Shown: positions 2,276-24,117 of the stretch, piece after piece
Position numbering within the stretch: the stretch's first letter is position 1
Layout of the letters: every line of letters starts with the position of its first letter
Virus record (IMG/VR): IMGVR_UViG_3300037493_004708
Location: 1 to 26,957 of that record
Length of the DNA stretch: 26,957 bases
DNA from: a virus
Direction: 5' to 3' (one strand)
Made by a program: the position numbers and the translations under genes
The notes under the pieces: generated by a model
Told to the model about the DNA's origin: nothing
The model's database searches: none
What the model saw: the letters and a program-made list of their open reading frames with translations, nothing else

Positions 2276-2304
2276 TTGTTTCCTGATAATAAATACTATC
2301 TTTG
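2276..2304 (+). promoter_or_regulatory. Bacteroidota-type promoter
   Basis: TTG (2276-2278), an 18-base spacer and TATCTTTG (2297-2304) match the Bacteroidota -33/-7 consensus. It would drive the gene starting at 2348 with a leader of about 40 bases. This argues against an ATG-less upstream start at 2276, which would overlap the promoter. Confidence 0.7.
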
Positions 2305-2347
2305 TGGAAATATAAGAGTAAAAGAATATTTATCAATTAAAGATACA

Positions 2348-4105
2348 ATGGATTTTTTAAAATTAATACAAGAAGGTAGAGTTGAAGATTTCAAGACCAA
2401 GTATTCTCAAAAGTTTGGTGGGGAGAATATAAATAAAATTCTTAAGGCGGTGCCCCAAAAATATTTGGATTGGGTTGGTAAAAACCTTGATACTGTTAAC
2501 TTCGAGGAGAACCTTGTAAAAGTTGGGGAGGCTTTAAAAAAGTTTGTAAAAATATCAACCAACCTTCCAATCACCGACTTATTCCAATATAAGAGTGCGG
2601 GACAACTATTGTCTGCCTTGGCGGAATATGAGACCAGACAAAGACGAGTGGTTAAAGAAGTTGAGGGTGGTAATGTTGTTTATGATGATGGTAGATTCTT
2701 TGTGGTTAATCCATTAACACATGATTCATCTTGTTATTATGGTAAGGGTACCAAATGGTGTACAACTACGGACTCAGACTATCAGTTCAATAGATATAAC
2801 CAAGACGGTAAGTTGTTTTACATCTTGGACCGACAAGCACCATCTGACAATAAGTTTTATAAAGTTGCCTTACTCCAAAAATTTGATGGTGACAAAACAT
2901 ATTATGATGCGTTGGATGAAACTGTAAAAGGTGGATGGATTTTGGGTACAAACAAGTTGAATGAAATCTTAAGTTCTGTTGACGATTATCTTAAATCACA
3001 ATATGCAGAACAAGTTAAGATTTATAGTGATAGAGAATTGGCTCGAAAGGAAAAAGAAAGATTGGAAAAAATGAGATTGGCTCAAATATTAAGAGAGAGG
3101 GAGAGCCAAGCTCAACAAAGACGTGAAGAGAATGAGTGGGAGTTGGGACCTGATTGTCCTGAAGAAGGTTTGAAAGCTCATGCATTATTAAGATTTCTTG
3201 ATGATGAGGGTGATGTTGAAGTAATGAACAATCAAGACCGAGGTGAGATTGCTCGAATTCAAAATGAAATTGACCGACTTCAAGCTGAATATGATAATGA
3301 TGAAGAAGTAAGAGGTGATTTATTGGATGAAATAAGTGGGTTGGAAGATGAGTTGGAAGAATTGGGACAAAAGATTGATGTATACAATATAATTCCAACT
3401 GGAAGATTTTATGATACAACAGAATTTGAAGTTATTGGCGCTCCTGATGTAGAAGACCGTAGATATGCTGTGGGTGATGAAACTGAAATGCAATCAAGTG
3501 CTGAAGATTATGTTGAAGGATTGATTGATGATATAGGTTTTGAGGGATTCAATAGTAATTTTGCAAAACAATATATTGATGATGATGCGGTTATAGCGTA
3601 TGCTGAAGATTTGTTTAATCAAGATGTTTATGAAAGTCCTGAATCATACTTAGATGATGACCAACGAAATTTATCCACAAAACAGGAGGAAAGAGTCGAT
3701 ATTTTAACTGACAAAATAGAAAAATTTAGAAGTTTAATCTCAAGATTTGAAGATGATATGGATGGTGAAAATGATGATGAACTTCAAGAAAGAATTGATG
3801 AGTTAATTGAGGAAATTACTGATATGGATACAGAAATTGAGGACATCAAGGAAGACCCTGAAGGTGATTTTCCTAATGAATTAATTGATGAAATTATTAC
3901 CGATAGAGTTAATCAGGCAAGATATGATATTGAAGGGTTTATGAATGAGTGGGGATTAGAATTGAATGAGTATATAGACAAAGATGAGTTTATTAGGGCT
4001 GTTATTGACGAAGATGGATATGGTACCACACTAAATGGTTATGATGGAAATGCTGAGGAGATAACAATACAGAATGAGTTATTTTATGTTATGAGAATTG
4101 ATTAA
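2348..4105 (+). CDS. Large WCT-motif protein with acidic coiled-coil C-terminus
   Basis: A 585-residue protein beginning MDFLKLIQEGRVEDF. The N-terminal ~210 residues share a domain with the protein at 13703-14575: both have a 'P-x-TH-x2-S-x2-YG-x2-T-x-WCT' block with the Trp at residue 137 in each, followed by F-x-RY-x2-(D/N)G-x-L-x-Y. After this domain comes a basic/acidic coiled coil (about residues 226-262, ELARKEKERLEKMRLAQ). A very acidic, Asp/Glu/Tyr-rich region then runs to the C-terminus with a second coiled-coil segment (about 450-505). The function is unknown. Similar WCT blocks recur in phage and mobile-element proteins as far as I recall, but I cannot name a confirmed activity. 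The start is chosen from the upstream promoter and a TATTTATC at 2327. Confidence 0.85.
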   Translation: MDFLKLIQEGRVEDFKTKYSQKFGGENINKILKAVPQKYLDWVGKNLDTVNFEENLVKVGEALKKFVKISTNLPITDLFQYKSAGQLLSALAEYETRQRRVVKEVEGGNVVYDDGRFFVVNPLTHDSSCYYGKGTKWCTTTDSDYQFNRYNQDGKLFYILDRQAPSDNKFYKVALLQKFDGDKTYYDALDETVKGGWILGTNKLNEILSSVDDYLKSQYAEQVKIYSDRELARKEKERLEKMRLAQILRERESQAQQRREENEWELGPDCPEEGLKAHALLRFLDDEGDVEVMNNQDRGEIARIQNEIDRLQAEYDNDEEVRGDLLDEISGLEDELEELGQKIDVYNIIPTGRFYDTTEFEVIGAPDVEDRRYAVGDETEMQSSAEDYVEGLIDDIGFEGFNSNFAKQYIDDDAVIAYAEDLFNQDVYESPESYLDDDQRNLSTKQEERVDILTDKIEKFRSLISRFEDDMDGENDDELQERIDELIEEITDMDTEIEDIKEDPEGDFPNELIDEIITDRVNQARYDIEGFMNEWGLELNEYIDKDEFIRAVIDEDGYGTTLNGYDGNAEEITIQNELFYVMRID

Positions 4106-9920: not shown

Positions 9921-10259
9921 GTATTCAACCGTATCACCTGGTTCAATCTCCAAGTATTCACAACTTCCACCTTCAATTTCCAATACAATATTTCCATTTC
10001 CACCGTAACTTGGACATTTATTACCATTACAAGGTGGACAGTTATAATGTATGTTTACAATAACATTATTTCTAATGATGAGAATATCTAATGGTATGAT
10101 ACAATCCTTCATCCAAAAAGATTGTTTGTCTCCACCCATTAAAAATAATAGACCCTCGAACGTAGCTCCAAATGTTTTATTCATCATCCCAATAGATTGA
10201 GATTCTTTATCTATTAAAGTTCTAACATTAAAAATATTGTCGTTGATTCTAACTTTCAT
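9912..10259 (-). CDS. DUF192 family protein
   Basis: A 115-residue protein with the DUF192 core: SIGMMNK, GLLFLM, SFWMKDCIIPLDIL (47-60) and VLEIEGG ending in GDTVEYLF. Cellular members are usually exported and have a signal peptide; this one has none. It also carries an unusual Cys cluster, CPPCNGNKC at 74-82, that could bind a metal. The molecular function of DUF192 is not established. The gene converges on the DHH gene and the two coding regions overlap by 9 bases. A TATTTATA motif ends 3 bases before the ATG. Confidence 0.9.
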   Translation of the reverse strand: MKVRINDNIFNVRTLIDKESQSIGMMNKTFGATFEGLLFLMGGDKQSFWMKDCIIPLDILIIRNNVIVNIHYNCPPCNGNKCPSYGGNGNIVLEIEGGSCEYLEIEPGDTVEYLF

Positions 10260-10262
10260 ACC

Positions 10263-10270
10263 TATAAATA
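10263..10270 (-). promoter_or_regulatory. TATTTATA start-proximal motif
   Basis: On the minus strand TATTTATA ends 3 bases before the DUF192 ATG. It has the same geometry as the copies at 1431, 11666, 17026 and 20768. Confidence 0.4.
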
Positions 10271-10319
10271 CAAATAATAGTGGAAGATGTGTTGATTTAA
10301 ACTTTTTTATAAAAAAAAT

Positions 10320-10350
10320 TTGACTTATCTATAAAAATATAGTACTTTTG
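10320..10350 (+). promoter_or_regulatory. Bacteroidota-type promoter 1 of 4 (RNA region)
   Basis: TTG (10320-10322), a 20-base spacer and TACTTTTG (10343-10350). No protein start follows within 300 bases, so it must serve the RNA genes or a short RNA of its own. Confidence 0.7.
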
Positions 10351-10422
10351 AAATTATTGGGCATATTTATTATTTCAGTCAGAAATGACGGACATCCCCA
10401 AAAAAAGTTTCATAATATATAT

Positions 10423-10453
10423 TTGACAAAATGAGAATTTTGTTTTAACTTTG
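10423..10453 (+). promoter_or_regulatory. Bacteroidota-type promoter 2 of 4 (RNA region)
   Basis: TTG (10423-10425), a 20-base spacer and TAACTTTG (10446-10453). The 50 bases downstream hold two small hairpins (10462-10479 and 10485-10503) and no reading frame. Confidence 0.7.
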
Positions 10454-10501
10454 TGAAACAATTGAGATGAGAGTCTCAAAAAAAAAATGTCCCACAGACA
10501 T

Positions 10502-10532
10502 TTGATTATTTCAAAAAATAGTTTTATCTTTG
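10502..10532 (+). promoter_or_regulatory. Bacteroidota-type promoter 3 of 4 (tRNA promoter)
   Basis: TTG (10502-10504), a 20-base spacer and TATCTTTG (10525-10532), 40 bases before the initiator tRNA. Its leader carries AGTTCTTTTAC (10550-10560), similar to the boxA-like site of the large RNA. Confidence 0.75.
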
Positions 10533-10571
10533 TGGGACATTACTTTGAAAGTTCTTTTACTTAAGATATAT

Positions 10572-10645
10572 CGCGAGTTGGTGTAATGGTAACATAATGG
10601 GCTCATAACCCATAGTTCTGAGTTCGAGTCTCGGGTTCGCAACCA
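10572..10645 (+). tRNA. Initiator tRNA-fMet (anticodon CAT), CCA encoded
   Basis: A complete 74-base cloverleaf: acceptor CGCGAGT / GTTCGCA, D arm GTGT-AATGGTA-ACAT, anticodon arm ATGGG-CTCATAA-CCCAT, T arm CTGAG-TTCGAGT-CTCGG, then A and an encoded CCA. Two initiator hallmarks are visible: position 1 and 72 are C and A and cannot pair, and the anticodon stem ends in three G-C pairs (GGG/CCC) next to the loop. The first protects formyl-Met-tRNA from peptidyl-tRNA hydrolase and elongation factor Tu, the second directs it to the ribosomal P site. The 11-24 pair is T-A rather than the usual purine-pyrimidine order of initiators. If read as an elongator with a one-base shift, the CCA would be misplaced, so the initiator reading is favoured. 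Confidence 0.92.
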
Positions 10646-10666
10646 AAAAAAAAGTTTACAAAAGAT

Positions 10667-10697
10667 TTGACAAATCAAAAAAATTGTTTTATCTTTG
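10667..10697 (+). promoter_or_regulatory. Bacteroidota-type promoter 4 of 4 (large RNA promoter)
   Basis: TTG (10667-10669), a 20-base spacer and TATCTTTG (10690-10697), between the tRNA and the large structured RNA. Expected transcription start is about 10702-10705. Confidence 0.75.
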
Positions 10698-10714
10698 TAG
10701 ACCAATTAATAAAA

Positions 10715-10725
10715 CGTTCTTTGAA
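10715..10725 (+). promoter_or_regulatory. boxA-like antitermination site
   Basis: CGTTCTTTGAA lies about 12 bases after the expected transcription start. It resembles the boxA element of rRNA operon leaders, where NusB/S10 binding prevents premature Rho termination of untranslated RNA. A related AGTTCTTTTAC precedes the tRNA. The resemblance to Bacteroidota rRNA leaders is from memory and needs comparison. Confidence 0.45.
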
Positions 10726-11621
10726 TTAAAGATATTTATCCGTTCAGTAGTTGATTATGAGACCTTTGGGTTGATTATGAGACATTTAACCTGATAAAGA
10801 TAATCGGCCGTATATGGTCGTTAAATAAACCACGAAAGTGGGATAAAGTGAACCTGTTGTGTTAACAGGATTGCGGCTTCGGAAACGGAGCTCGAGTATA
10901 CAAGCGAGATATCATTTTTGCTTTAGTAACCGAGGGTAACACTGTAGGTGAAGAGTTGAGATGACCAAGCGATGTGGGTCGTTTGGTTGAGGTGGGAACA
11001 CTAATAAGAATAACTCGTAGGAATCTTGTAAGAAGTGAGACCTCCAATCTTATCATTGCGAATTCCAATACGAAAGTGGGTTTAAAACCGAAAGGTAAGA
11101 GGTCGTACAGGTGGTGCTGGTGATTCCTTCTTAAAGTCTCTACCAAGGGATTTAAGATGAAACAAACTTGAAGTATGGAGATGGGGACATCTCAAGGAGT
11201 AGTATAGTATTTTGTCGTTCAAAAGATGACGGAGCTTACGGTGGACCACTACTTCTATCATCCACGACACACAAACTTATAATTTACAATGTTAATGTAA
11301 AAGTTATACTAAAAACTATAAGCAAAAGTGTCCATCAGGTTTTGATGAAAGTCGCCTACACAGTCATGGGTTGTCCATGGCACACCGAGACCGCAAGTCA
11401 GAGTGTATTTTTACCAAAAACCTCTAAGGGGTCGAACCCTGAGTCAGTTCGCAAGATTGAAGAGAGTAGAGTAGTAAAAGAGTAGTTAAAACCTTTAGGA
11501 GTGATTGGTCTAACCAATCGGCGATGAGAGTTACCATTCAAAAGATGGTGGAAACGAAGGGAACCACATAATCCTTCCAAAGATTCTCAAAAACAGGTAT
11601 ATTCTCAACCTTTTAGCCATC

Positions 11622-11654
11622 AAACCCTATCTGTTAATTCAGGTAGGGTTTTTT
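11622..11654 (+). terminator. Intrinsic terminator of the large RNA
   Basis: AAACCCTA and TAGGGTTT form an 8-bp outer stem with an inner CTG/CAG, followed by six T residues. It closes the large RNA transcript. Confidence 0.92.
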
Positions 11655-11665
11655 GTTTTATGGGA

Positions 11666-11673
11666 TATTTATT
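11666..11673 (+). promoter_or_regulatory. TATTTATT start-proximal motif
   Basis: TATTTATT ends 3 bases before the ATG at 11677, directly after the terminator. The 11650-11673 stretch copies 6674-6697 with one inserted base. Confidence 0.45.
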
Positions 11674-11676
11674 GAT

Positions 11677-12243
11677 ATGAAAATAGTGATAACCGAACAA
11701 CAATTTAATGCCATATTTGAGAGTGATTCAAAAGAACAACTAACTGAAAAATGTTGGGCTGGTTATAAAAAAGACGGTATGAAAACCATGTTTGGTAAAA
11801 AATATCCTAATTGTGTAAAAGAAGAATCTGAGGAAACAAATGAAGCTTCAAGTCCTGTGCAACAAGCTGCAATTGCCATCAATATGAAGAAGAAGGGTAT
11901 TAAACCCAAAAACAAAACTTTATATGAAGATGAATATGGTTCAGTTGAGGAGACCAATTTTATTATTGGTGATTTAATAACCGAAGCAGAATATCAAGGA
12001 AGAAAAGTTCAGTTGGGTAAAATAATGCAAGGTGACATTAAAAAGTTCAAAGTATATGTTAAGAATGATAAAGGTAAGGTTGTTAAGGTAAACTTTGGTT
12101 TTGGTGGAAAATCTGCACATGGTAAAATAATGAGGATTAAGAAGAATAATCCTGAAAGAAGAAAATCGTTTAGAGCAAGACACAATTGTGATACTCCTGG
12201 TCCAAGATGGAAACCAAGATATTGGGCATGTAGAACATGGTAA
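11677..12243 (+). CDS. Tagged conserved phage protein with C-terminal Cys/Trp motif
   Basis: A 188-residue protein. The N-terminal tag MKIVITEQQFNAIFE has hydrophobic-x-Glu sites at residues 5-7 (ITE) and 22-24 (LTE). It is followed by CWAGYKKDGMKTMFGKKYPN and CV, a Cys-containing block. The middle is variable and Lys/Ala-rich. The C-terminal ~75 residues are basic and look strongly conserved in kind (KKFKVYVKNDKGKVVKVNFG, then RARHNCDTPGPRWKPRYW). The C-terminal domain is, to my recollection, common in marine phage proteins of unknown role. Its Cys/His pairs (HNC, WAC) may bind a metal or nucleic acid. The start at 11677 is chosen because an upstream ATG would place the first residues inside the terminator. 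Confidence 0.85.
   Translation: MKIVITEQQFNAIFESDSKEQLTEKCWAGYKKDGMKTMFGKKYPNCVKEESEETNEASSPVQQAAIAINMKKKGIKPKNKTLYEDEYGSVEETNFIIGDLITEAEYQGRKVQLGKIMQGDIKKFKVYVKNDKGKVVKVNFGFGGKSAHGKIMRIKKNNPERRKSFRARHNCDTPGPRWKPRYWACRTW
12199..12224 (+). repeat. 26-bp direct repeat, copy 1
   Basis: GGTCCAAGATGGAAACCAAG followed by ATATTG; it recurs at 12378-12403 with two mismatches. Copy 1 encodes GPRWKPRY in the conserved C-terminus of the protein ending at 12243. Confidence 0.8.
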
Positions 12244-13212: not shown

Positions 13213-13238
13213 CCCTCACAGAAATGTGGGGGTTTTTT
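13213..13238 (+). terminator. Intrinsic terminator
   Basis: CCCTCACA / TGTGGGGG stem (one G-T pair) with a GAAA loop and a run of six T residues. The last TTG of the T-run doubles as the -33 element of the next promoter. Confidence 0.9.
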
Positions 13239-13266
13239 GTTTATATCAAAATTTATATTATCTTTG
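13237..13266 (+). promoter_or_regulatory. Bacteroidota-type promoter of smpB, near-leaderless
   Basis: TTG (13237-13239), a 19-base spacer and TATCTTTG (13259-13266). The -7 box ends 5 bases before the smpB ATG, leaving no room for a ribosome binding site. Confidence 0.75.
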
Positions 13267-13271
13267 TTCCC

Positions 13272-13697
13272 ATGAAAGAGGGTGTCAACATAATAAACAG
13301 GAGAGCGAAGCATGAATACGAGTTCTTGGACACGTATCAAGCGGGTATGGTCTTGACTGGTGTTGAGGTTAAATTCATTCGTGATGGTAAGTTATCTTTT
13401 GTTGATTCTTATTGTATGTTCCAAGATGGAGAGTTGTTTATGAAGAACGTATCCATCTCAGGTATTGGTAATGATAATATTAAAAGAGACCGTAAGTTGT
13501 TACTTAGGAAACGTGAGTTGGTTAAACTTCAAAAGAGTTTGGATAAAGGTTTGAGTATCATCCCATACAAAATTTACCAAAAGAAAAACACCCTCAAGAT
13601 TGACATTGTTCTTGCTCGTGGTAAGAAATTACATGACAAGAGACAGACCTTAAAGGAGAAAGATATTCAAAAAGAAATAAACAGAACATTAAAATAA
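13272..13697 (+). CDS. smpB: SsrA-binding protein SmpB
   Basis: A 141-residue SmpB, slightly shorter than cellular versions (about 150-160). Conserved blocks are in order: INRRAKHEYEFLDTYQAGMV (8-27), TGVEVKFIRDGK (29-40), DSYC (45-48), GELFMKNVSIS (53-63), DRKLLLRKREL (73-83) and the C-terminal LARGKKLHDKRQTLKEKD (114-131). A loop around residues 63-72 is shortened. SmpB binds tmRNA and carries it to ribosomes stalled on broken mRNAs; the C-terminal tail, which probes the empty mRNA channel, is intact. No tmRNA is visible in this window, so it would act with host tmRNA or with one elsewhere in the phage genome. The start at 13272 fits the promoter; a longer frame would begin inside the terminator. 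Confidence 0.97.
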   Translation: MKEGVNIINRRAKHEYEFLDTYQAGMVLTGVEVKFIRDGKLSFVDSYCMFQDGELFMKNVSISGIGNDNIKRDRKLLLRKRELVKLQKSLDKGLSIIPYKIYQKKNTLKIDIVLARGKKLHDKRQTLKEKDIQKEINRTLK

Positions 13698-13702
13698 AGA
13701 TT

Positions 13703-14575
13703 ATGTCAAAAGTAGATGAATTAAGAGTAAGATTTCCTAAGGTGACTAATGCTACATTCACTAAGATGGTTGAATTTGATTTTACAGGTACTCACAAATA
13801 TTTGGAGTATATGTTAAAAGTTTGGGTCTCACGTAATGAATATGGTATGAATCATAGTATCGCTCAACTATTTAGTGAGGTTAAAAGATTTGATTTCTTA
13901 CTGCCGTATCAAACAAATAAAGACATTTATTCAAATGACTTTTCTAATTATCGTTTATTAGTTGAAATGAATGATAAGGCTCAAATTGTGAAAGAGGATA
14001 AAACATTTGTTAGGGAAGAACATGTTGATGTGGTTTATGAGGATGATGAAGTGATTATGGTATCACCTAAAACTCACAAGGGTTCTTTGAAGTATGGTGC
14101 TAATACCACATGGTGTACCGCATCTAAAAACAATCCTGACACTTTCAAGAGGTATTCTAAAAACGGCTGTTTGGTTTATTTGGTCGATAAGACTGAGTCG
14201 AAGAAAAAGAACTATCAGAAAATTGCCTTCTACAATAACTCAGGAAAAACTTTGGCTGGTGAAATTGATATCTATACTCAAAATGATAACCAGATTGGTG
14301 AAGTAAGTTTGATTAATAATGGATGGAAACCTGAAAAATTGGCGGAGTTGATGTTAAGGTTTCGTGCTTACCACGTGGATAGAGAAACTGTTAAAAGAGC
14401 TAAGGATAAAGTTGAATCTCTTATTGACGCAATGAAAAACATTGACCTTGACGAACTTTATTCAAATGTAAAATATCTTGAAAAACGAAGTGAGAATGAG
14501 TTCAAAGATATTAATGATTTGGTAAATACTTTTGTAAGTACCGTTGAAAAAAGTTTGGAGAAATTCAATAATTGA
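13703..14575 (+). CDS. WCT-motif protein, paralogue of the 2348 gene's N-terminal domain
   Basis: A 290-residue protein. The block SPKTHKGSLKYGANTTWCTA, followed by F-x-RYSKNGCLVYLVD, matches the first 200 residues of the protein at 2348-4105, and Trp137 has the same residue number in both. Unlike that protein it lacks the long acidic coiled-coil extension and instead ends in two helices (about 235-285). The function is unknown; the conserved Trp-Cys-Thr and the His/Ser/Tyr pattern before it could form an active site or ligand pocket. It follows smpB by 5 bases and is presumably co-transcribed with it. Confidence 0.85.
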   Translation: MSKVDELRVRFPKVTNATFTKMVEFDFTGTHKYLEYMLKVWVSRNEYGMNHSIAQLFSEVKRFDFLLPYQTNKDIYSNDFSNYRLLVEMNDKAQIVKEDKTFVREEHVDVVYEDDEVIMVSPKTHKGSLKYGANTTWCTASKNNPDTFKRYSKNGCLVYLVDKTESKKKNYQKIAFYNNSGKTLAGEIDIYTQNDNQIGEVSLINNGWKPEKLAELMLRFRAYHVDRETVKRAKDKVESLIDAMKNIDLDELYSNVKYLEKRSENEFKDINDLVNTFVSTVEKSLEKFNN

Positions 14576-22163: not shown

Positions 22164-22203
22164 GTCAATACTAAATAAAAATAAACCAAACAAAAAAATG
22201 CTA

Positions 22204-24117
22204 ATGAAAAAAATTCTCCTTACCCTAACGTTCTCGTTATTAACCATTTTTGGTTTTGGGCAAACTACAACTTGTCCAACACCATCCGCTTCGGGTGTTT
22301 ACATTAACTTGGACACCTCGTATTTGGCAGGAACCGTTGTTCAAGGTTTTACTAATGTGGATTTATGTTTCTACAATAATACCTCGACAAAGATTACTGC
22401 ATTCCAATTTAGAGTTTTCTACGATAACTCAGCTTTCTCAGGTATTGATACCATAACATCTTTGAACACATCTTTTGCTCAAAATTTGAAGTATAATGTA
22501 AACCAATCTGCTGGTCATGCAACAATAACTATGACGTATACAGGTAGTTTGTCTACATTTGAAATATCTTCAGGTCCAATGATTAGATTGAAGTTACGTC
22601 ACGTCACAGGATTCGCATCACTTACATCAATTGCGAACATGACATTTGGAACAGTATCTACATATCCGGCAATTGCTGCAAAACAAGATGGTACAGACAA
22701 CACATTAACTCTACAAAACTATGGTGGTGTTATCGCTCCTCAAACTATGTCGTTCAAAGGTACTTTTACCAACGTGACTGGTACAGGTGCTAAAAACCTT
22801 ACAGTTGCTTTGGAGAAGAAACTTAAACCAAGTGGTTCATGGGTTCAAGTGACAAGTCAACTTACAAACACACAAGGTAAGTTTGCATTCAAAGACGTAT
22901 CAATTGATACTACAGGTTACTTTGTAAGAATTAAAGTACAAGGTGATACCATGAGTGTTGGTAATGTAATATCCACAGCGGATGCACAGAAAGTACAGGA
23001 CTATGTATTAGGTACACAAACACCAACAGGGTTTAACTACTATGCAGCTGATGTTAATGGTGATAATAGTTTAACCATCTCTGATGCTTGGGGAACATTT
23101 GGTAGAATCTCAGGTAGATTCTCTGTGTGGCCTAACAGCGTAAAAGATGTTAAGTTCTTTACTGTGGCTCAATACAATACAATTAATAACTCATCCACTA
23201 ACTATACATCAACAATTGCAGGAGAAACTAACTTCACTTTTGACATTGTTGCAGGACAACCTGACTCAGTTACTTACTATGTTTTAGTACCAGGTGACGC
23301 GAACGGAACAGGTTATAAAATGGCTCGTGTAACTCCAATAGAAGTGTTAATTGCACCTCAACCAGGTGTTGAACATCAAATCTATAACGTAATTGATAGT
23401 AGAGTTCAATATGATTTTCCAACAACAACTATCGAAGTTAACGTACCAAGATTAAAGGTACAAGAAGGTAACTTAGTTAATGTACCTGTTAAGGTTTTAA
23501 CTAACGGGGATAAACTAGGTTCATTACAGTTTGGGTTAAAATACAACGATACATTACTTGAATTTAAAGGAGTTGAAACAAAATCGGCAACTTCAAGTTG
23601 GGTATCATATTTGAACACAAACGACAATCAAATTGATTGGGGTGGGTTTGATGGGAACAACCACTCTAAACCACTTGTTGATGGTGATGAGGTTGTAACT
23701 TTACAATTTATCGCTAAAAAACCACAGGCAGAATGGACAGTTAGTCCCTTATGGACAACAAACAAATTCGCAGGAAACAATCAATGTAAAGATTTAGAAA
23801 TCATACCAACAAACGGAATCATCCAAGTATATAAAATGTCTATGGGTGGTGATTTAACAGGTAACGATGAAATAATGGTATCACCAAATCCAACTGATGA
23901 TGTGACTGCAATTACTTTTAAAGTTAAAGAATACGGTTCAGTTAAACTTTCAATTAAAGATTTAATGGGTAGAGAATATGAAGTTGTCTTAGATGGTTCA
24001 GTACCAAAAGGAGAATATTCATATATGGTTGATTTAGGTAGTTTGTCACCAGGAGTTTACGTGGCAATCCTACAAAGAATTGACAAAAACATTGCAACAA
24101 AAATAGTTGTACAATAA
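22204..24117 (+). CDS. Secreted cohesin/dockerin-like protein with T9SS C-terminal sorting domain
   Basis: A 637-residue surface or secreted protein. Signal peptide: MKKILLTLTFSLLTIFGFGQ. Residues about 25-170 form a cohesin-like beta domain (AFQFRVFYDNSAFSGID). After a second beta domain, residues about 255-305 resemble a dockerin (AADVNGDNSLTISDAWGTFG, with the Asp/Asn calcium-loop pattern). A second cohesin-like domain follows at about 407-545 (VPRLKVQEGNLVNVPVKVL, then GSLQFGLKYNDTLLEFKGVE). The last ~80 residues (VSPNPTDDVTAITF, VKLSIKDLMGREY, GEYSYMVDLGSLSPGVYVAI) match the type A sorting domain of Bacteroidota type IX secretion, which is removed as the protein crosses the outer membrane. 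The ATG at 22198 is an alternative start. It heads the envelope cassette. Confidence 0.9.
   Translation: MKKILLTLTFSLLTIFGFGQTTTCPTPSASGVYINLDTSYLAGTVVQGFTNVDLCFYNNTSTKITAFQFRVFYDNSAFSGIDTITSLNTSFAQNLKYNVNQSAGHATITMTYTGSLSTFEISSGPMIRLKLRHVTGFASLTSIANMTFGTVSTYPAIAAKQDGTDNTLTLQNYGGVIAPQTMSFKGTFTNVTGTGAKNLTVALEKKLKPSGSWVQVTSQLTNTQGKFAFKDVSIDTTGYFVRIKVQGDTMSVGNVISTADAQKVQDYVLGTQTPTGFNYYAADVNGDNSLTISDAWGTFGRISGRFSVWPNSVKDVKFFTVAQYNTINNSSTNYTSTIAGETNFTFDIVAGQPDSVTYYVLVPGDANGTGYKMARVTPIEVLIAPQPGVEHQIYNVIDSRVQYDFPTTTIEVNVPRLKVQEGNLVNVPVKVLTNGDKLGSLQFGLKYNDTLLEFKGVETKSATSSWVSYLNTNDNQIDWGGFDGNNHSKPLVDGDEVVTLQFIAKKPQAEWTVSPLWTTNKFAGNNQCKDLEIIPTNGIIQVYKMSMGGDLTGNDEIMVSPNPTDDVTAITFKVKEYGSVKLSIKDLMGREYEVVLDGSVPKGEYSYMVDLGSLSPGVYVAILQRIDKNIATKIVVQ

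Follow-up and report, generated by a model that had tools for sequence, protein, structure and literature searches.

GOLLD RNAs are located in phages or prophages, often close to tRNA genes, and their expression rises during phage lysis. The structures of GOLLD and ROOL cages have been solved. According to the structural report, env-38 GOLLD, which lies downstream of a Met-tRNA, is a 14-mer RNA-only nanocage in which the 5' domains form the caps, the 3' domains form the rings, and a disordered linker is directed inward (Kretsch et al. 2025, PMC12286853). The same report describes bridge B8 as a symmetric kissing loop (L21a) with an internal CG/GC switch, places GOLLD near tRNA islands, and cites a ribosome pull-down with GOLLD. 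GOLLD is also found close to mycobacterial tRNA arrays (PMC6582537).

Here, we analyzed a DNA stretch of 26,957 bases (the window) that constitutes an IMG/VR virus record (IMGVR_UViG_3300037493_004708) and is probably a fragment. A preliminary description had proposed that a unit of this DNA encodes a giant noncoding RNA resembling GOLLD or ROOL, as either a divergent member or a new class. A cmscan search with Rfam 15 gave a plus-strand match to the GOLLD model RF02032 over its entire length (model positions 1–416 of 416) with 316.3 bits, ca. 2-fold the curated cut-off (gathering score, 150). ROOL identity was rejected because its covariance model gave no match even at permissive thresholds (E up to 1 in 10250–11700 and up to 2 across the window). 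The GOLLD idea held: the window RNA is a regular full-length member of the family and not an especially divergent one.

RF02032 spans only the 3' half of GOLLD. A GOLLD motif scan over viral contigs yielded 90 stretches, and the 5' part (10713–11194) was 68–90% identical to its counterpart in more than 60 of the fetched viral loci. The full-length relatives obtained by nhmmer with the whole unit (n = 38 after dereplication, including the window) contained LR745206 and LR756502 from phages of 634 and 642 kb; the homology among them starts at ca. 10711–10715 and ends at ca. 11616. A giant RNA of a new class unrelated to GOLLD might be considered, since the 5' half alone gives no Rfam match, Rfam covering the 3' half only. 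However, in addition to the full-model match at twice the cut-off, 37 of 37 related records tested scored above the RF02032 cut-off, and the 5' half accompanies an RF02032-type 3' domain in every full-length relative, making a new class extremely improbable. GOLLD RNAs exceed 800 nt and have a structured 5' domain, and the unit in the window (ca. 0.9 kb) has both properties. The two halves differed in their nearest relatives among the collected loci (numbered with the prefix L): the 3' half (11195–11611) was closest to L044 (94.6%; L008, 87.6%), and the 5' half (10711–11194) was closest to L008 (89.8%; L044, 84.6%). This difference suggests that domains may have been exchanged.

Table 1 Features of the GOLLD locus in the window.
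Feature	Position	Strand	Evidence
Promoter of tRNA	10501..10532	+	Pattern scan
tRNA-Met (CAT), upstream of GOLLD, own promoter	10572..10645	+	ARAGORN, Rfam
Bacteroidota-type promoter of GOLLD unit (TTTG-N-TATCTTTG)	10666..10697	+	Pattern scan
GOLLD RNA transcription unit	10705..11655	+	Ends placed from promoter and terminator
5' domain of GOLLD (forms the cap in env-38), outside the Rfam model	10711..11194	+	Homologues 68–90% identical; covarying pairs
GOLLD 3' domain, full RF02032 match	11195..11611	+	316.3 bits, E 4e-90
7-bp helix over linker, 5' strand	11240..11246	+	100% paired, 6/7 pairs with double changes
Variable A/U-rich linker (disordered loop inside env-38 cage)	11271..11323	+	Alignment; PMC12286853
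7-bp helix over linker, 3' strand (partner of 11240–11246)	11330..11336	+	Covariation
GUCGAA-loop hairpin, probably L21a of the self-kissing bridge B8	11429..11438	+	Putative correspondence, from PMC12286853
Intrinsic terminator	11622..11651	+	Hairpin of 12 pairs
Promoter directly before smpB	13236..13266	+	Pattern scan
Phage smpB, encoding the trans-translation factor SmpB; 1.66 kb downstream of GOLLD	13272..13697	+	PF01668, E 1.4e-44

The Bacteroidota-type promoter pattern TTTG-N17–21-TAnnTTTG was found at 12 sites in the window versus 2.2 expected by chance. One of these sites precedes the RNA and an intrinsic terminator follows it (Table 1), in agreement with the preliminary description of a promoter-to-terminator unit beside a phage tRNA and without a protein frame. 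The longest frame inside the unit is 105 aa from TTG (11168–11485); the relatives differ from the window in this frame by frame-breaking indels, and their substitutions respect base pairs. A protein-coding reading was thus rejected for want of a conserved frame. A short protein gene begins at 11653, 3' of the noncoding unit. Upstream of the tRNA promoter, an extra promoter of the same type (10422–10453) is followed by the short inverted repeat GAGATGAGAGTCTC and an A run, and 10422–10500 may represent a possible small transcript.

The secondary structure was predicted using RNAalifold on the 38-sequence alignment. Covariation among the homologues was extensive: 146 of the 194 consensus pairs showed compensatory changes. 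In the 5' half, 103 pairs were formed with 96.9% of cells paired and 78 pairs with double change, and the corresponding values in the 3' half were 89 pairs, 98.1%, and 68 pairs. When the 3' partner was slid by 1–3 columns, 36–47% of cells were paired and 18–36 pairs had double change, and shuffling of the 3' letters left 80% paired in the 5' half; the consensus was derived from the same alignment on which it is scored, so that the comparison favors it, and the double changes are nevertheless far above the controls. Covariation thus supports GOLLD over its full length in the Bacteroidota-type phages, with the 5' half absent from Rfam also covered.

The short hairpins with GNRA loops that had been noticed earlier recurred in the consensus fold (GAAA at 10834, 10882, and 11090; GGAA at 10995; GGGA at 11184), together with CGCAA pentaloops. 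The direct repeat reported near the 5' end, GTTGATTATGAGAC, is present twice at ca. 10749–10785; because it lies within a variable hairpin and is clearly kept only in L069, it is not a defining feature. The suggested long-range closing helix had to be abandoned: each half folds independently, and the pairing between them amounts to 2 bp without covariation (10807–10808 with 11521–11522). Two covarying helices are located outside the nested structure, namely the 7-bp helix over the linker (Table 1) and 11351–11356 with 11520–11525. Additionally, a 7-nt complementarity between the 5'-domain loop 10973–10979 and 11260–11266 is retained across almost every row, a few of which carry compensated changes, and represents no more than a candidate contact between domains or subunits.

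The loop at 11429–11438, which is GUCGAA in the window and GUCGAA or CGCAA in the relatives, probably corresponds to L21a of bridge B8, judging from its position. Since the window RNA has parts matching those of env-38 and an L21a-like loop, cage formation can be inferred with good confidence, and by homology with env-38 the RNA most likely assembles into a cage. We estimate the probability that the window element is a cage-forming GOLLD RNA at ca. 85%. On the model of env-38, many copies would assemble into a closed cage made solely of RNA and held together by A-minor contacts and kissing loops, with the 5' domains serving as caps, the 3' domains as rings, and the variable linker placed inside. 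A putative kissing interaction between L20 and J13/15 (bridge B7) was also considered at 11370–11374 with 11264–11268, where 5/5 positions were paired in the window and 3–4/5 in most relatives; the loop assignment was guessed, and the candidate is weak.

A phage protein encoded at 22198–24117 of the window has a cohesin domain and Por_Secre_tail. The latter, which serves as a sorting domain for type IX secretion and is known from Bacteroidota, likewise points to Bacteroidota. Together with the promoter type and the huge-phage relatives, it supports assignment of the window to a Bacteroidota-type phage related to the 634–642-kb phages, consistent with the group assumed in the preliminary description. 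LR745206 and LR756502 are putatively the Mahaphages of 634 and 642 kb that are predicted to replicate in Bacteroidetes in the report on huge phages (Al-Shayeb et al. 2020, PMC7162821). A search for the host through the conserved GOLLD motif in GTDB cellular genomes gave seven streptococcal matches only and identified no host. Two genes of one phage family (phrog_17056/phrog_28193, function unknown) at 2276–4105 and 13703–14575 flank GOLLD.

Downstream of GOLLD, the window carries smpB (Table 1). This gene was present in 12 of 37 GOLLD records, 10 of which had it on the strand of GOLLD and no more than 4.1 kb downstream. When the window SmpB alone was used as a query, 17 loci were obtained, and 14 had a near-full-length GOLLD just upstream. 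A wider scan gave 80 viral SmpB loci with GOLLD within 10 kb in 36, in 35 of which it was located directly upstream on the same strand with a gap of 69–1644 nt. GOLLD was not seen at the other 44 loci, many of which resemble gene-dense cellular DNA; an Rfam search for a substitute large RNA found only tRNAs and one tmRNA in 14 GOLLD-less loci, and most GOLLD-less loci have no long gap. Among 44 GOLLD clusters (grouped at 95% identity), smpB was the commonest neighbor (24 clusters); it invariably followed GOLLD in the same orientation, with a median gap of 79 nt. These counts are not independent, since 40 of the 44 clusters are linked in a single chained synteny group, and probabilities based on uniform placement are no measure of significance here. 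Large distances separate GOLLD from smpB in L106 (54 kb), L183 (ca. 98 kb), and the two largest phages of 634–642 kb (67 and 88 kb). A ClpA/ClpC-type ATPase look-alike, recognized by sequence, lies 2–5 kb from GOLLD in 14 clusters (loci L083, L045, L007, L018, L040, L090, L002, and L003).

The gap between GOLLD and smpB is just 69–99 nt in ca. 20 loci, which would suit a long 5' leader of the smpB mRNA acting in cis regulation. In contrast, GOLLD is followed by its own terminator and smpB is directly preceded by a separate promoter, on which grounds the leader was rejected; gaps of up to 4 kb and the many GOLLDs without smpB also make it very unlikely.

A tmRNA (RF00023) scored above the cut-off in 26 of 45 GOLLD records. 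In 14 of the 16 tabulated records, it was located 137–2069 nt downstream and convergent with GOLLD, and it also occurred in smpB-less phages. The tmRNA was on the opposite side of GOLLD in L156, and the order was different in L186; in both loci, GOLLD, smpB, and tmRNA were all within 10 kb. No tmRNA above the RF00023 cut-off was found in the window or in its own clade, and this clade would thus need the host tmRNA. The linker was rejected as a tmRNA antisense because its complementarity to the tmRNA of the same phage was no better than that of shuffled linkers in 12 phages. The phage tmRNAs beside GOLLD appear to encode a conserved 21–22-aa tag, G[DN][VI][LI]xK[ML]xxxGL[LIV]R...VA, in frames chosen by eye (L010, L012, L007, L040, L052, L077, L063, and L039). 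This tag ends in -VA, unlike typical bacterial tmRNA tags, which end in -LAA.

Other tRNA-like elements were observed upstream of GOLLD. Up to two circularly permuted tRNA look-alikes per locus, in which the T-arm precedes the D-arm within a 9-bp stem, surround a tRNA (L040 5808–6106, L090 7455–7753, L006 2752–3052, L052 2758–2857, and L056 51–337) and score as Y RNA-like YrlA; the best of them reaches 41 bits (E 8e-6), short of the gathering score of 69. There are also odd tRNA-like genes of 91–93 nt (L006 2861–2953, L027 2686–2777, L040 5918–6009, L052 2855–2946, and L090 7565–7656), and those inspected by eye have an extra D-loop hairpin and atypical anticodon loops.

Judging from gene order, a role of GOLLD in ribosome rescue in this phage group can be proposed tentatively. 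The cage would act with the phage rescue or translation-takeover set (SmpB, tmRNA, and tRNAs), and in the simplest mode, it would hold or recruit ribosomes or tRNA-like cargo late in infection. A slightly less likely reading makes GOLLD a functional component of a ribosome-rescue module encoded by Bacteroidota phages, in which the cage would act with SmpB and/or the unusual-tag phage tmRNA, for example to trap stalled ribosomes or to store tmRNA-SmpB during infection. We give even odds to a cage RNA whose proximity to smpB and tmRNA reflects an inherited translation or RNA-gene island with no functional link. A shared island of this kind is consistent with the position of GOLLD near tRNA islands (PMC12286853) and mycobacterial tRNA arrays (PMC6582537), with the broad synteny among the phages, and with the streptococcal and lactobacillus-type GOLLD prophages, which have neither SmpB nor tmRNA. 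However, no gene lies closer to GOLLD or recurs beside it more often than smpB, while other genes vary, and the trio stays within 10 kb in L156 and L186 despite the shifts in tmRNA side and order. Moreover, 16 of 40 rows in the SmpB tree were GOLLD-adjacent and fell into three separate clades (at least 3 changes), which also argues against mere inheritance of an island. The recurrent placement of GOLLD beside smpB and/or tmRNA in many phages makes a role in ribosome rescue or in translation takeover a testable hypothesis and names the possible partners.

The window element adds a member to the known GOLLD family, and its new aspect is the placement beside rescue genes. We found no literature linking GOLLD to SmpB, tmRNA, or trans-translation in a search that had most subscription journals outside its range, and this link is provisionally regarded as apparently unreported. 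The tmRNA-SmpB genes of huge phages are comparable in that both SmpB and tmRNA are phage-encoded, and these phages include the 634- and 642-kb relatives, whereas an adjoining GOLLD is not mentioned in the available part of that report (PMC7162821). ROOL is likewise a large, cage-forming phage RNA near tRNAs and differs in that the window has no match to its covariance model. As for env-38 GOLLD, the sequence is different, the 5' domain of the window was likened to it by description and not by sequence, and the available part of PMC12286853 does not mention an smpB/tmRNA neighborhood. On the other hand, the window RNA resembles env-38 in its complete 3' domain match, its length of ca. 0.9 kb, the division into 5' and 3' domains, the presence of a variable linker, and a phage location with a Met-tRNA directly upstream, and probably also in the CG/GC loop variants.
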